From NCBI RefSeq assembly GCF_000282595.1, contig NZ_AKIZ01000037.1, positions 186,001-250,000 of the forward strand: a stretch of DNA of 64,000 nucleotides, read 5' to 3'. Every line of letters starts with the position of its first letter. Positions within the stretch are counted from its first letter, which is position 1. Shown one piece after another: positions 31,741 through 36,570 of the stretch. The position numbers and the translations under genes are program-made. The notes beneath the pieces were generated by a model that saw only the letters and a list, made by a program, of their open reading frames with translations, made no database searches and was not told the DNA's origin. Source of the stretch: Phyllobacterium sp. YR531. GTDB lineage: Bacteria > Pseudomonadota > Alphaproteobacteria > Rhizobiales > Rhizobiaceae.

Positions 31741-31920
31741 GTTCGCCCCCTACGGCTTGCCAACGTGTTACGCGCTGGCGATTGCGACTGAACCGCAAGC
31801 GGGGAAAGATTGTGTAAGGACAAACCGTCAGCCAACAATCGCTCCTGCAAGCGGCAACACTTTTTCAAATGTCACCGCGTTCATAGCGACCGCGCCGGAA
31901 CACGCCCCGTGTTCAAGCTT

Positions 31921-32095
31921 GGTGACCGGATCTGGCAGGTCTCCTGACTTCCGGATCATTGCAGGTTCTTCCGCCTTCCCAATCGCGCCGGTGCGCTTTC
32001 AGTGGCATGTGGAAGACCGCTTCCCGGTTACAGTTGCGGGGGCAGCCACGGATTAGGCCCCGAAATGGGTCATCCTCACCGTGTTCCCTTTTAAT
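31921..32095 (-). promoter_or_regulatory. Cobalamin riboswitch controlling btuBFCD
   Basis: Read on the minus strand this has the ordered landmarks of the cobalamin riboswitch: GGTG near 32079, the CCCCGCAACTG core near 32035-32046, the B12 box as TGCCACTG (32000-32010), the GGAAGG segment, and a closing GTCAGGAGACCTGCC at 31933-31947. Adenosylcobalamin binding should switch off the btu operon. The rest of the 505-base gap (31741-32246) holds an A/C-rich leader with no gene. Confidence 0.95.
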
Positions 32096-32246
32096 CCGCA
32101 TATAATTGCGGAACCAGTTCCACATTCTGGATAGCAACTGTGTGGTAATGGGTCAATCAGCCAGCCTGCTCATCTTGGCATAGCCACAAAGCTCTGGTGT
32201 CACCAAATCGCATGAATGACAACCCGAGGCGCTTGTCAGCCAATGA

Positions 32247-32867
32247 CTATTTCATGACGGACAGCGCCGAAAGGCTGAATAATGCTGCAGCCGAGAGATA
32301 ACTGAATATTGAGCCATTTCTACCGCTCTTATTGAGGAGGAATTTTTTGAGTAATGACGCACTCAAGACAACGGCAATGTCGAAAATCAATGCCAGAAAT
32401 ACGAAAGTCATGGCGAACAACAATATTTGAGGGAGTGCTTCAGCCTCTTTACTTACAAACATGGGAAGAAAAGCGGCAAAGAATAATGTGGTTTTGGGGT
32501 TCAGGAACGAAACGATCAATCCTTGTTTCAAAATATGCAGATTACTTTCTTTAATCGCATCTTGCGAAGCATTCTCCTTCAAGGAAAACAGCGTTTTTAC
32601 GCCAAGATAAGCCAGGTACATGGCGCCAAGTATTTTCACGACCTCAAACGAGGCGGGATAACTTTTGAACAAAAGGGCCAGCCCGCATGCAGACCCAATC
32701 GCATTGCCAAAATTGCCACCTGCGACGCCAAATGCGGACGCCAATCCGTTATCCTTGCCTCCCGATACAGTTCTCGAGATGACATACAAGAGACCCGGGC
32801 CAGGAATGACAATGATCGCCAGACAAGCCACAATATAAAGAGCCAAATTTTCAAGAAAACCGTTCAT
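32247..32867 (-). CDS. LysE/RhtB family amino-acid exporter
   Basis: A 206-residue inner-membrane exporter with six hydrophobic segments and the family start IVIPGPGLLYVISRTVSGG, followed by the GLASAFGVAGGNFGN block and FLNPKTTLFFAAFLPMFV. LysE/RhtB members expel amino acids or their derivatives. It is the third gene of an AT-rich cluster, 37 bases after the dioxygenase gene, so it most likely exports that enzyme's product or protects against it. The ribosome site is weak. The low G+C shared with its two neighbours suggests common acquisition. Confidence 0.92.
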   Translation of the reverse strand: MNGFLENLALYIVACLAIIVIPGPGLLYVISRTVSGGKDNGLASAFGVAGGNFGNAIGSACGLALLFKSYPASFEVVKILGAMYLAYLGVKTLFSLKENASQDAIKESNLHILKQGLIVSFLNPKTTLFFAAFLPMFVSKEAEALPQILLFAMTFVFLALIFDIAVVLSASLLKKFLLNKSGRNGSIFSYLSAAALFSLSALSVMK

Positions 32868-32904
32868 GGCGTTTACCGAGTTGAAATCTTAGACTGACTA
32901 TTCT

Positions 32905-33903
32905 TTAAATAATGAATGACTGCTCGTGCAGCGCGCTTTCACGCATCTTCTTGAAGTTTTGCGTCACATTTATTTTCTTCAACCACCTGTCGGATCCATC
33001 ATAATTTGGTGTGAATGCACGACGACCGTGAACAGCACGATGATTATCGATAATCAACATGTCGCCTGAACCAATCACAAAGTCTTTCTGAGTATCGTCA
33101 ATCTCTTTTACCAGACGGTTGTATACCGGTACTGACGGATCTGTTTCAGCAACGATTTTTGTAAAAGCGGGATCCAAGCGAAGGTAAGGGGTTTCAATAC
33201 TGCCAAAAAGAATACTTTCAAATGGGGGATTGTTTACCAGTTCCTTCATGCGGGCATATGCTGTTTGCCCAACTTTGGTAGTCGTATTCTTTAAATGTTC
33301 CGCATGATCAGGGTCAGGGATAAACTGGAAGTTCTTCCTGAATAACAACTCGCGCTCTTCTGGTAGTATGGTGCCTGGAAGCTCTCCTAATGTAGTAGGT
33401 GTCTTCTGTGGGTTTCTCATTCCTAGCAAAATTATATAGTCAGGCCTGTTCGAGCTGAAAGCGTCCTCAGTATGCCACACAAGCGCTTCTCTACTCCCTG
33501 CGCCAAGCTGTGAGAATTCCGCAGATTTCATGGGCACAATATTTTGGACCAGCCGACCGCTTTGTTGTGTTGAGAAAGCATAGGGCACGCCCAGCGCGCT
33601 AGCCACAATAGCCAGGTAAACTTCTTCTCTTGTAATTTGATCGCCGGGATTTCTTTTGGTTGTAGATGGCGTTGGGCCAATTGCGCTGTCGCTAATCGCA
33701 AAACCGCTTAATTGAAGCCATGGCGTTATATCTTCCCTCAGCAAGCTGGTAAAAATTTCGCGAATGGGAAGAGGAAGTTTCGGTGCAGAGTAAGCGGCGA
33801 GTTTATGTAGATCAGCTTCGCTTTGAGCAGAGGTAAGAACCGACTGAATAAGGTCCTCAATTTCCTCCGCGTCGCTACATGTAAGGGTGTATATATTTTT
33901 CAT
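32905..33903 (-). CDS. Fe(II)/2-oxoglutarate amino-acid hydroxylase (VioC/AsnO/clavaminate synthase-like)
   Basis: A 332-residue TauD/TfdA-superfamily oxygenase. The iron ligands appear as His144 and Glu146 in VWHTEDAFSS, and His292 in DNHRAVHGRRAF; Arg306 (GSDRWLKKI) should bind 2-oxoglutarate. The use of Glu in place of Asp in HxE, followed by AFSSNRPDYIILLGMRN, marks the clavaminate synthase/AsnO/VioC group, which hydroxylates free amino acids at the beta carbon. The His-His spacing of 148 and His-Arg spacing of 14 equal those I remember for VioC, the arginine hydroxylase. The gene lies 12 bases after the AsnRS-like gene and 37 before the exporter. Substrate unknown: Asn, Arg or Lys are the candidates. 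Confidence 0.88.
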   Translation of the reverse strand: MKNIYTLTCSDAEEIEDLIQSVLTSAQSEADLHKLAAYSAPKLPLPIREIFTSLLREDITPWLQLSGFAISDSAIGPTPSTTKRNPGDQITREEVYLAIVASALGVPYAFSTQQSGRLVQNIVPMKSAEFSQLGAGSREALVWHTEDAFSSNRPDYIILLGMRNPQKTPTTLGELPGTILPEERELLFRKNFQFIPDPDHAEHLKNTTTKVGQTAYARMKELVNNPPFESILFGSIETPYLRLDPAFTKIVAETDPSVPVYNRLVKEIDDTQKDFVIGSGDMLIIDNHRAVHGRRAFTPNYDGSDRWLKKINVTQNFKKMRESALHEQSFII

Positions 33904-33915
33904 TTTACCCCGCTC

Positions 33916-34944
33916 TTATACTGATGCCATGCCAGGTATTGTCCGGTTCGGACCACGATCATGGGGTTGAACAAAATCCAAGACTGTTGTTGAACCGGAA
34001 ACAAACCTTAGGAGACGCTCAAAACCTATGCCAAAACCGGCGGTTTGAATTTTTCTAGCGCGTTTCCATTCCGCATGACCCATTGTCAGGCTCGCTTTAG
34101 CCTCACCCAGATTGTCCAGCGACTGCTGTATGATTGCTTCACCGGTCTTTGGACGAATGCCCCCGGTAGAAAGTTCGCCATAACCGAACGGCAGCATCAG
34201 ATCATAAGTATCGTAATTGCCCTGATCGTTTTCGTGATAGACCGCGTCGCGTACGCCCTTCGGATAGTTGTAAATCCAGAATGGCCGGTCAAACTGCAGG
34301 CTTAGCGACTGATCTTCGTCAAAGGTGAGGTCACTTAGACGCTCTGGTGATGCCTCGACCAGTTGAAGCGCCTCCTGGAATGTAATCCGAGGATAGTTGC
34401 CCAAAGCAATCGCTTCGAGGTGTTTTTTGGAAATACTTGTGAGTTTTGAAGGACCGTTTTCGACACTTAGAAGGATATTACTGATACGAACAAGCAGTGC
34501 CTGAGCCGTATCAAATACATCTTCCATGGATTCTGTCTTCCATTCGATCTCCATCTGAAAAAATGTATTCAAGTGCTTGCGGGAAGCTGCCTCCCCCTCT
34601 TGAAGCAAGCGAACACAGGGCGCCAAACAATAGACTCGATCCAGAAATTCTGTGGCTTGCTGCTTCTCGAAATTATGACTTACCGGCAGGTAATAAGCTT
34701 CCTTGCCTGTCACCTGTACCTGACGCTCTGGCTCTCGTCCATCAAGCTCGATATATTCAGGTCGAATGCGATTACCCAGAACACCAAAGGAGTGAAATGC
34801 ACCGGGCTCAAGTTCACTTGAAAGAATTGCAGGAACAATCTCATTGAAGCCAAATTCGTCCAAGGCCGTCCGAGCGGCGGAAAGCGTTCGCGATGTCCAC
34901 TGATAGGTTTCAGTTGCGGAAAAGGTTCGTCTTTGTACAATCAT
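33916..34944 (-). CDS. AsnRS paralogue resembling archaeal asparagine synthetase A
   Basis: A 342-residue class II synthetase core without the N-terminal anticodon-binding OB domain. Motif 2 has Arg112 (CVRLLQEGEAASRKHLNTFF, then QMEIEW), and motif 3 is TAGFGIGFERLLRF with Arg310. The block YDLMLPFGYGELSTGGIRP is the AspRS/AsnRS-type ATP site. Without an anticodon domain it cannot read tRNA in the usual way. The nearest relatives I know are AsnRS-derived asparagine synthetases, which make Asn from Asp, ATP and ammonia. The start at 34944 (MIVQRR) has GAG at about 11 bases; the longer frame to 35028 adds a hydrophobic, unlikely leader. It is the first gene of the AT-rich cluster. Alternatively it may activate another amino acid. 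Confidence 0.82.
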   Translation of the reverse strand: MIVQRRTFSATETYQWTSRTLSAARTALDEFGFNEIVPAILSSELEPGAFHSFGVLGNRIRPEYIELDGREPERQVQVTGKEAYYLPVSHNFEKQQATEFLDRVYCLAPCVRLLQEGEAASRKHLNTFFQMEIEWKTESMEDVFDTAQALLVRISNILLSVENGPSKLTSISKKHLEAIALGNYPRITFQEALQLVEASPERLSDLTFDEDQSLSLQFDRPFWIYNYPKGVRDAVYHENDQGNYDTYDLMLPFGYGELSTGGIRPKTGEAIIQQSLDNLGEAKASLTMGHAEWKRARKIQTAGFGIGFERLLRFVSGSTTVLDFVQPHDRGPNRTIPGMASV

Positions 34945-34966
34945 TAAAAATACGCTCTCATTTAAA

Positions 34967-35053
34967 ATTATATCTAATTTGATGGCGGACAAAAAAAGAA
35001 TGCAGCAACCTATACGTAAAACGGACACTTAGTTAAGCGTCTACAAGTTGTAG
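34967..35053 (-). promoter_or_regulatory. Likely promoter and operator of the amino-acid cluster
   Basis: On the minus strand a perfect TATAAT lies at 34972-34967, 22 bases before the chosen start of the AsnRS-like gene, with TTGTCC/TTTTTT options for -35 at about 34984-34997. Further upstream CTACAAGTTGTAG (35041-35053) is a 13-base palindrome (CTACAA/TTGTAG) that could bind a dimeric regulator. The region is strikingly A+T-rich. Confidence 0.45.
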
Positions 35054-35148
35054 TCGCGCTGTAAAACGAGCCAGAATCTTTTTCATAAAAGGCGGGACGG
35101 AACGGCTAATGCTGCGCAAAAGTATGATGCGGTGCCGATGCGGGCGAC

Positions 35149-35922
35149 CTATTCTTCCACATCCTCAAACGTCTTTTTCAGCAGATACGTATCCATGATC
35201 CAACCCTTTTGTGCACGGGCGACATTGCGCAGCCGCTCAATATCATCGACCACCTCGCGCAGCTTGCCGGACATGAGGATTTCGTCTTCCGTGCCGATAT
35301 AAGCGCCCCAATAGATATCGACATCCTCGTGGATATTCTTGAAAGCCCCCTCGCCATCGAGCATGACCACGACGCTTTCTGAATTATTCGGAAAGCCCTC
35401 GGCGAGTTTTCTCCCAGTGGTAATTGTAATCGACTCGCCTATGCGATTGAGCACCACCTTATGCTTCGCCGTCAGCGCCTGAATGCTGGTGATGCCCGGA
35501 ATGACATCATATTCCAGCTCAAAACTGCCCTTGGCGTTCAACCTGTCGAGAATCCGGATCGTGCTGTCATAAAGTGATGGATCACCCCAGACGAGGAAAG
35601 CACCGCATTCATCATCGCCTAGTTCCTCCATCAACAAATGCTCATAAGTCGCCTCCACCTTGTCATGCCAATCGGTGACACTTGCGCGATATGTTGAGGA
35701 AGGCTTTTCACGAACAGGCGTTGCAAAATCCACCATGCGATAATCGGGATCGGTAATGAACCGCTCGCAAATCTCCCGGCGTATACGCGACAGCTGCTCT
35801 TTCTCCGCACCCTTGTCTGGAATGAAAAACACATCCACCTGATTGAGTGCGCTTACAGCCTGTATCGTCACGTAGTCGGGGTTGCCTGCACCAATCCCGA
35901 TAATAAGTACTTTGCGCTTCAC
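35149..35922 (-). CDS. cobF: Precorrin-6A synthase (deacetylating) CobF
   Basis: A 257-residue SAM-dependent methyltransferase of the tetrapyrrole methylase fold: the start VLIIGIGAGNPDYVTIQAV, then FLVWGDPSLYDSTIRILDRL and YDVIPGITSIQALTAKH. CobF methylates C-1 and removes acetate in the aerobic (oxygen-dependent) cobalamin route. The start is GTG at 35922, which overlaps the stop of the small upstream gene as GTGA and has no Shine-Dalgarno, so translation depends on that gene. It is under a cobalamin riboswitch. The other cob genes are not in the window. Confidence 0.94.
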   Translation of the reverse strand: MKRKVLIIGIGAGNPDYVTIQAVSALNQVDVFFIPDKGAEKEQLSRIRREICERFITDPDYRMVDFATPVREKPSSTYRASVTDWHDKVEATYEHLLMEELGDDECGAFLVWGDPSLYDSTIRILDRLNAKGSFELEYDVIPGITSIQALTAKHKVVLNRIGESITITTGRKLAEGFPNNSESVVVMLDGEGAFKNIHEDVDIYWGAYIGTEDEILMSGKLREVVDDIERLRNVARAQKGWIMDTYLLKKTFEDVEE

Positions 35923-36182: not shown

Positions 36183-36295
36183 GCTTAACCCCGATTACTG
36201 GGGCAAGGGTCGAGCGCGTAGATTGCAGACGGTCAGCTTGCGCCAAACCACTGCAAGCGACACACCGGGACACCCCGCCCGTGGACGTTCATCAT

Positions 36296-36505
36296 GTTTC
36301 GGCAGGTCTCCTGGCTCACAGGTCAGTGCCGCTATCTGGCCTTCCCGAGGACTGCGCCTCAGTGACCTTCTCCTGAATATCTCAGGTGACAGCAACTCGC
36401 TGTTTACAGTTGCGGGGGCAGCGCCGGCATTGGTGAATGTCACTTCACCGGCTTCCCTCTTAGCTCCCGGCCTTTCGGTCGGGAGAACCGGAACACTCTT
36501 ATAAG
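36296..36505 (-). promoter_or_regulatory. Cobalamin riboswitch controlling the cobF operon
   Basis: Minus-strand landmarks are a CTCCCGACC...GGCCGGGAG hairpin (36464-36486), the CCCCGCAACTG core (36407-36417), a B12 box variant GGTCACTGAGG near 36357-36367, GGAAGG, and the closing AGGAGACCTGCC near 36300-36311. It differs from the btuB riboswitch mainly in the extra hairpin. Binding of adenosylcobalamin should turn off cobF. It accounts for most of the 450-base gap 36183-36631. Confidence 0.94.
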
Positions 36506-36570
36506 AGCCCAGCATGCCCCTAAACGTCAACAGGCAAGCTTTGAATTGCGTGGAAATCGCCCATCAACAG

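Follow-up and report, generated by a model that had tools for sequence, protein, structure and literature searches.

A compact acquired operon predicted to combine an AsnA-like aspartate ligase, a basic-amino-acid oxygenase and an exporter in Phyllobacterium sp. YR531

In class IIb enzymes a Lys contacts the side-chain carboxylate of Asp, and the AsnRS-type Gln helps to position the substrate for activation of its alpha-carboxylate. AsnA from Pyrococcus abyssi (PDB 3p8t/3reu/3rl6) is a free-standing class II core without anticodon domain that combines the Asp-type Lys with a conserved Arg and the motif-3 Arg and lacks the AsnRS Gln, all of which also holds for the ligase studied here. Bacilysin and dapdiamide come from NRPS-free ATP-grasp dipeptide clusters, small operons that make and export an unusual amino acid, as is predicted for ours; to our knowledge, no system of this type uses an AsnA-like ligase together with a clavaminate-synthase-like oxygenase.

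Arginine in hydroxylated or dehydro form is a known building block. The oxygenases NapI, OrfP, VioC and GntD share with the oxygenase of our locus an HxE...H iron site, a 2-oxoglutarate (2OG) binding Arg, an amine-binding Gln and a DxxD sub-pocket, and AsnO belongs to the same superfamily and fold. Members acting on Arg, Lys or Orn carry Gln or Glu at P2 and build a negative sub-pocket from a lid Asp (P12) and an Asp at P15; in AsnO, P2 is Glu and the lid Asp is absent (PMC6224419). The D241N variant of AsnO, altered at the position equal to P15, accepts aspartate (PMC9968057).

Here we analyse a three-gene operon found in a 64,000-nucleotide stretch of DNA (hereafter the window) from a root-associated bacterium. 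The enzyme families are all known; no description of their combination was found in the open-access papers searched, in line with the first-pass annotation, which knew of no described system of this kind.

The operon and its island

Three co-directional genes lie on the minus strand, separated by gaps of 12 bases (ligase-oxygenase) and 37 bases (oxygenase-exporter), and their coordinates were re-found as first annotated. The features are:

33916..34944, minus strand: ligase, first gene, 342 aa (tRNA-synt_2, tree, residues, Foldseek)
32905..33903, minus strand: Fe(II)/2-oxoglutarate oxygenase, second gene, 332 aa (residues, profiles, structures)
32247..32867, minus strand: LysE-superfamily exporter, RhtB/LeuE-like, third gene, 206 aa (Pfam, NCBIfam profiles)
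34945..35148, minus strand: upstream region, expected site of the operon promoter, GC 0.426 (position)
32139..35148, strand not applicable: foreign low-GC island (between two blastn blocks common with relatives)

Pfam assigned the products to tRNA-synt_2 (E-value 4.9e-23), TauD (1.1e-9) and LysE (2e-27), respectively, and the ATG start of the 342-aa ligase agrees with that of its homologue on the Agrobacterium vitis plasmid. The absence of an NRPS from the operon was confirmed. Searches for promoters and terminators at the operon, including 34945..35148, gave nothing above chance.

According to blastn against genus-level relatives, common DNA stops at 32138 and resumes at 35149, with nothing in between. 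The lowest-GC kilobase of the window begins at 32251 (minimum 0.438 per kb vs a window mean of 0.538), and third-position GC of the island genes is 0.44-0.50, compared to about 0.60 in neighbouring genes. Since the region combines low GC with absence from the relatives checked, we conclude that the operon was horizontally acquired. A simple insertion into a conserved site was rejected, since the flanking blocks were never found adjacent in relatives and no empty site was seen; repeats bounding the island amounted to weak two-copy matches. The operon is flanked by a cobalamin riboswitch and TonB-receptor block on one side and by a cobF-like gene on the other. Among plasmid records the flanking genes are most similar to those of Phyllobacterium, in a small number of matches, in keeping with this genus as the probable host. 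Cobalamin riboswitches were identified on the minus strand at 31917-32133 (126 bits) and 36284-36507 (121 bits), which is ordinary for the B12 genes there.

Ligase, oxygenase and exporter

The first gene had been annotated as an AsnRS-like enzyme without anticodon domain. The class II catalytic core was indeed the sole domain found; the AsnRS likeness was refined to an AsnA-like one by the tree and by the active-site residues. Profile and structure searches place the ligase between AsnRS and archaeal AsnA, which were also its top Foldseek matches, with about 23-24% identity to archaeal AsnA in the structure alignment. Two structure models were moderate (pLDDT 72 and 67), and structure-model alignments covered the window and genome loci. 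In a tree that took in AsnA, AsnRS and several AsnA-like proteins from other clusters, the eight ligases form one clade (100/100) with a long branch, which falls with AsnA at the split that separates AsnA from AsnRS (95/95).

Lys94 corresponds to the Lys of AsnA and AspRS at a position where AsnRS has Glu, and is found in 8/8 clade members. Three residues before that Lys, where AsnRS has its Gln, the ligase has N91, the gamma-proteobacterial and Bacillus members have Val and AsnA has Ile. R264, the motif-3 Arg R310 and the GxGxG of motif 3 are retained. As the Lys is kept and the AsnRS Gln is lost, the inference from sequence is that the ligase adenylates aspartate via its beta-carboxylate. 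Unlike archaeal AsnA, however, it lacks the Glu of the motif-2 R-x-E, reading R112-L-L, and its scores against curated models of asparagine synthetase A, 109 bits in NCBIfam and 108.8 bits, are far below the respective cut-offs of 309 and 368 bits. Given these scores, the missing Glu and the long branch, its substrate or nucleophile may be other than that of AsnA.

A role as canonical or back-up tRNA synthetase was rejected, since the residues are of Asp type and the AsnRS features tested, an N-terminal anticodon-binding domain and a Glu at the side-chain site, are absent. A profile search of the host genome gave no canonical AsnRS and no AsnS above cut-off. The ligase-family profile has a single match in that genome, and the remaining asnS-like matches belong to an open frame of 601 aa, located on a different contig, that is probably AspRS.

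The oxygenase has its complete set of ligands, as first annotated: iron-binding H144, E146 and H292, and 2OG-binding R306. Its closest structures are OrfP, NapI and VioC, from which, as from GntD, it differs by an identity of about 30-37% and by membership of a separate clade of Rhizobiaceae oxygenases (100/100); the operon moreover contains no NRPS or enduracididine genes. NCBIfam scores are 309 bits for GntD (NF041363, cut-off 345) and 254 bits for VioC (TIGR03946, cut-off 418.6), and identity as a guanitoxin-type GntD was rejected because the curated cut-off is not reached. Pocket residues are Q114 (alignment numbering), D197 (P12), D244 (P15), A246 (P16) and K310 (P19). The Gln, the lid Asp and the P15 Asp are shared by the three Rhizobiaceae sister oxygenases, and Ala at P16 and Lys at P19, which are Asp and Arg in VioC, match exactly those of NapI, a structure titled L-arginine desaturase and the nearest by its pocket. 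Matches to AsnO are far weaker than to OrfP and VioC; at P2 and P12 the window enzyme carries Gln and Asp instead of the Glu and Pro of AsnO, and it lacks the Pro-rich lid, so that their predicted substrates differ. By its pocket, which is of the VioC/OrfP/NapI type, the predicted substrate of the window oxygenase is arginine or another amino acid of similar basic kind. This supports one of the two products proposed in the first-pass annotation, a hydroxylated basic amino acid, to which we add other oxidised forms.

The third gene was correctly assigned to the LysE superfamily (Pfam LysE 96.4 bits, gathering score 25.6), not so to the lysine-exporter type: TIGR00949 and LeuE score 104 and 98 bits, compared to 28 bits for the L-lysine exporter model TIGR00948 (cut-off 213.65). 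The protein resembles neutral-amino-acid carriers and, as it is nearer to the RhtB/LeuE than to the lysine-exporter models, export of basic amino acids is not specifically indicated.

Sister loci and their partners

Homologues were collected by tblastn of plasmids and by one scan of GTDB genomes, whose strict patterns may have missed distant members. Ligase homologues with 50-71% identity were obtained from A. vitis (L002 on a plasmid, L007 on a chromosome), Rhizobium paknamense (L008), Pantoea (L004/L005), Xenorhabdus beddingii (L009), Erwinia (L010) and Bacillus siamensis (L011); Pantoea L004 ends at the record edge and is near-identical to L005, and the two records were counted as one. The neighbourhood search suggested in the first-pass annotation, which had taken synthetase-like enzyme, oxygenase and exporter for one functional unit, bore this out: the unit recurs across genomes, and in 8/8 readable loci, the window included, ligase and clavaminate-synthase-like oxygenase share a strand and lie a few genes apart at most. 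These loci span three bacterial groups and the pairing exceeds chance. Six partly overlapping genome samples, centred on the window or four hosts (100, 398, 80, 395, 198 and 397 genomes), gave no further copy beyond the genome each was centred on, and the pairing is therefore rare and patchy.

Across loci the ligase retains 50-71% identity and the oxygenase 23-53%. The third member in the Rhizobiaceae is a LysE-type exporter, co-inherited with ligase and oxygenase and 46-47% identical between the window and the A. vitis and R. paknamense clusters. In its place the gamma-proteobacterial and Bacillus loci have an exporter of the MFS type, together with an ATP-grasp ligase, of which Bacillus has two, and a protein of the Asp/Glu racemase family. 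ATP-grasp ligases are a feature that these sister clusters share with bacilysin and dapdiamide clusters and that the window cluster lacks; that of one sister cluster is weakly similar to BacD/DdaF. The A. vitis plasmid cluster also encodes a protein of the L-asparaginase II family (PF06089, 100 bits), absent from the window, L007 and L008. Oxygenases of the gamma-proteobacterial and Bacillus loci have Glu at P2, Pro at P12 and Asn or His at P15, the alignment of the short Pantoea, Erwinia and Xenorhabdus proteins being uncertain at the side-chain site, and by these residues they are AsnO-like with an altered side-chain site; that of B. siamensis is closest to AsnO (175 bits). Since pockets differ between loci, the ligase clade has at least two kinds of oxygenase specificity among its partners.

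This is a very rare mobile gene pairing, NRPS-free and mostly found in plant- or animal-associated bacteria, which suggests repeated recruitment of AsnA-type ligases into specialised metabolism. Its Rhizobiaceae form is pared down to three genes, a size that makes it easy to express in the search for a new exported metabolite.

One locus is decayed and a second may be. In the Allorhizobium ampelinum S4 copy (L003:12001-13613) the ligase is split into two annotated genes, the oxygenase is cut to its first 23 codons and the asparaginase has lost its N-terminus; the pathway is being lost in this strain. In A. vitis CG78 a stop stands in the ligase frame just before the homologous region (L007:8986-9060) and the first ordinary start codon comes about 19 residues late, a possible N-terminal decay. 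Pantocin B and PNP-1 were considered as the known product of the Pantoea relatives; no match to this gene set was found in the papers compared, which did not extend to the pantocin B gene list, and pantocin B may still be that product. Beside the A. vitis cluster lies a divergent operon (L002:5711-10800, L003:5723-10802) with a PEP-utilising enzyme, a nucleotidyltransferase, a CDP-alcohol phosphatidyltransferase, a glutamine-amidotransferase-like protein and a second LysE, which may be another small-molecule pathway.

Predicted pathway and alternatives

The most economical reading is, we infer, that the Asp beta-carboxyl ligase and the basic-amino-acid oxygenase feed one exported compound. To judge from its family and residues, the AsnA-like ligase would take aspartate or a near analogue, adenylate its beta-carboxylate and form a beta-amide with ammonia or another amine. 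Given its pocket, the oxygenase would accept arginine or a similar basic or guanidino amino acid and oxidise its side chain, most likely by C3/C4 hydroxylation and possibly by desaturation as in NapI, after which the RhtB/LeuE-like carrier would export the product, an amino acid or a beta-aspartyl conjugate. The co-occurrence of the enzymes of the first two steps supports a single pathway with export. That the locus is a compact acquired operon for a ligase, an oxygenase and an exporter with this predicted chemistry is a view that we hold about evenly for and against; the Asp and Arg chemistry may also not converge in one product.

One form of this reading, which we consider unlikely, is that the ligase links the Asp beta-carboxyl to the amine of oxidised arginine, or to another amine, and that a pseudo-dipeptide is exported. 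The one or two ATP-grasp ligases of sister clusters with the same ligase argue for it and point to a peptide in those clusters, a beta-aspartyl amide could be a substrate for the PF06089 protein of the A. vitis plasmid, and the constancy of the ligase beside a changing oxygenase suggests that an Asp-derived part is shared. On the other side, we know of no AsnA-family enzyme that takes an amino acid as nucleophile, and the asparaginase-family gene is missing from three of the Rhizobiaceae loci. By analogy with the sister ATP-grasp genes and the A. vitis asparaginase-family gene, both absent in the window, we lean towards an amide or peptide. The bolder proposal of a new branch of AsnA-derived ligases, in which three genes turn an Asp beta-carboxyl and an oxidised arginine-type amino acid into a secreted beta-aspartyl pseudo-dipeptide, the ligase having other oxygenases and ATP-grasp ligases as partners in the sister clusters of other bacteria, we regard as likewise unlikely; such a compound may, for example, be an antimetabolite.

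The product that the first-pass annotation named first, 3-hydroxyasparagine, would arise by amidation of Asp to Asn, hydroxylation and export. The AsnA likeness of the ligase agrees with this, and so does a Streptomyces AsnA-like gene that adjoins a methylaspartate mutase, which fits amidation of a beta-substituted Asp. Yet the window oxygenase has the DxxD sub-pocket for basic substrates rather than the P2 and P12 residues of AsnO and matches AsnO far less well than OrfP or VioC, and cells normally make Asn already; this product is disfavoured at the window locus and we rate it as improbable there. A route to 3-hydroxyasparagine or 3-hydroxyaspartate is plausible in the gamma-proteobacterial and Bacillus clusters, considering how near the B. 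siamensis oxygenase is to AsnO. Still more improbable, in our estimate, is that the oxygenase alone makes the exported product, such as 3-hydroxyarginine or 4,5-dehydroarginine, with the ligase as a separate modifier, resistance or supply enzyme. Such arginine derivatives serve elsewhere as building blocks and the pocket matches VioC/OrfP/NapI; however, the ligase is the better-conserved member and has an oxygenase neighbour at every intact locus, so that it is unlikely to be an accessory.

Related synthetase genes were noticed in other clusters. Streptomyces plasmid NRPS clusters (L023:6173-10186, L024:6080-10183) have consecutive genes for a methylaspartate mutase, an AsnA-like protein and a glutamate-synthase-related protein, which may provide a route to 3-methylasparagine. 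A second AsnRS-like clade, with a Glu-type active site, occurs in Bradyrhizobium, Peribacillus and Xenorhabdus (L006:8619-12404, L026:6850-10187, L027:7689-10730); it recurs with an S66/LD-carboxypeptidase and a SAM methyltransferase, has extra aminoacyl-tRNA synthetase genes near two of its three loci, and looks like the mark of a different small-molecule cluster.
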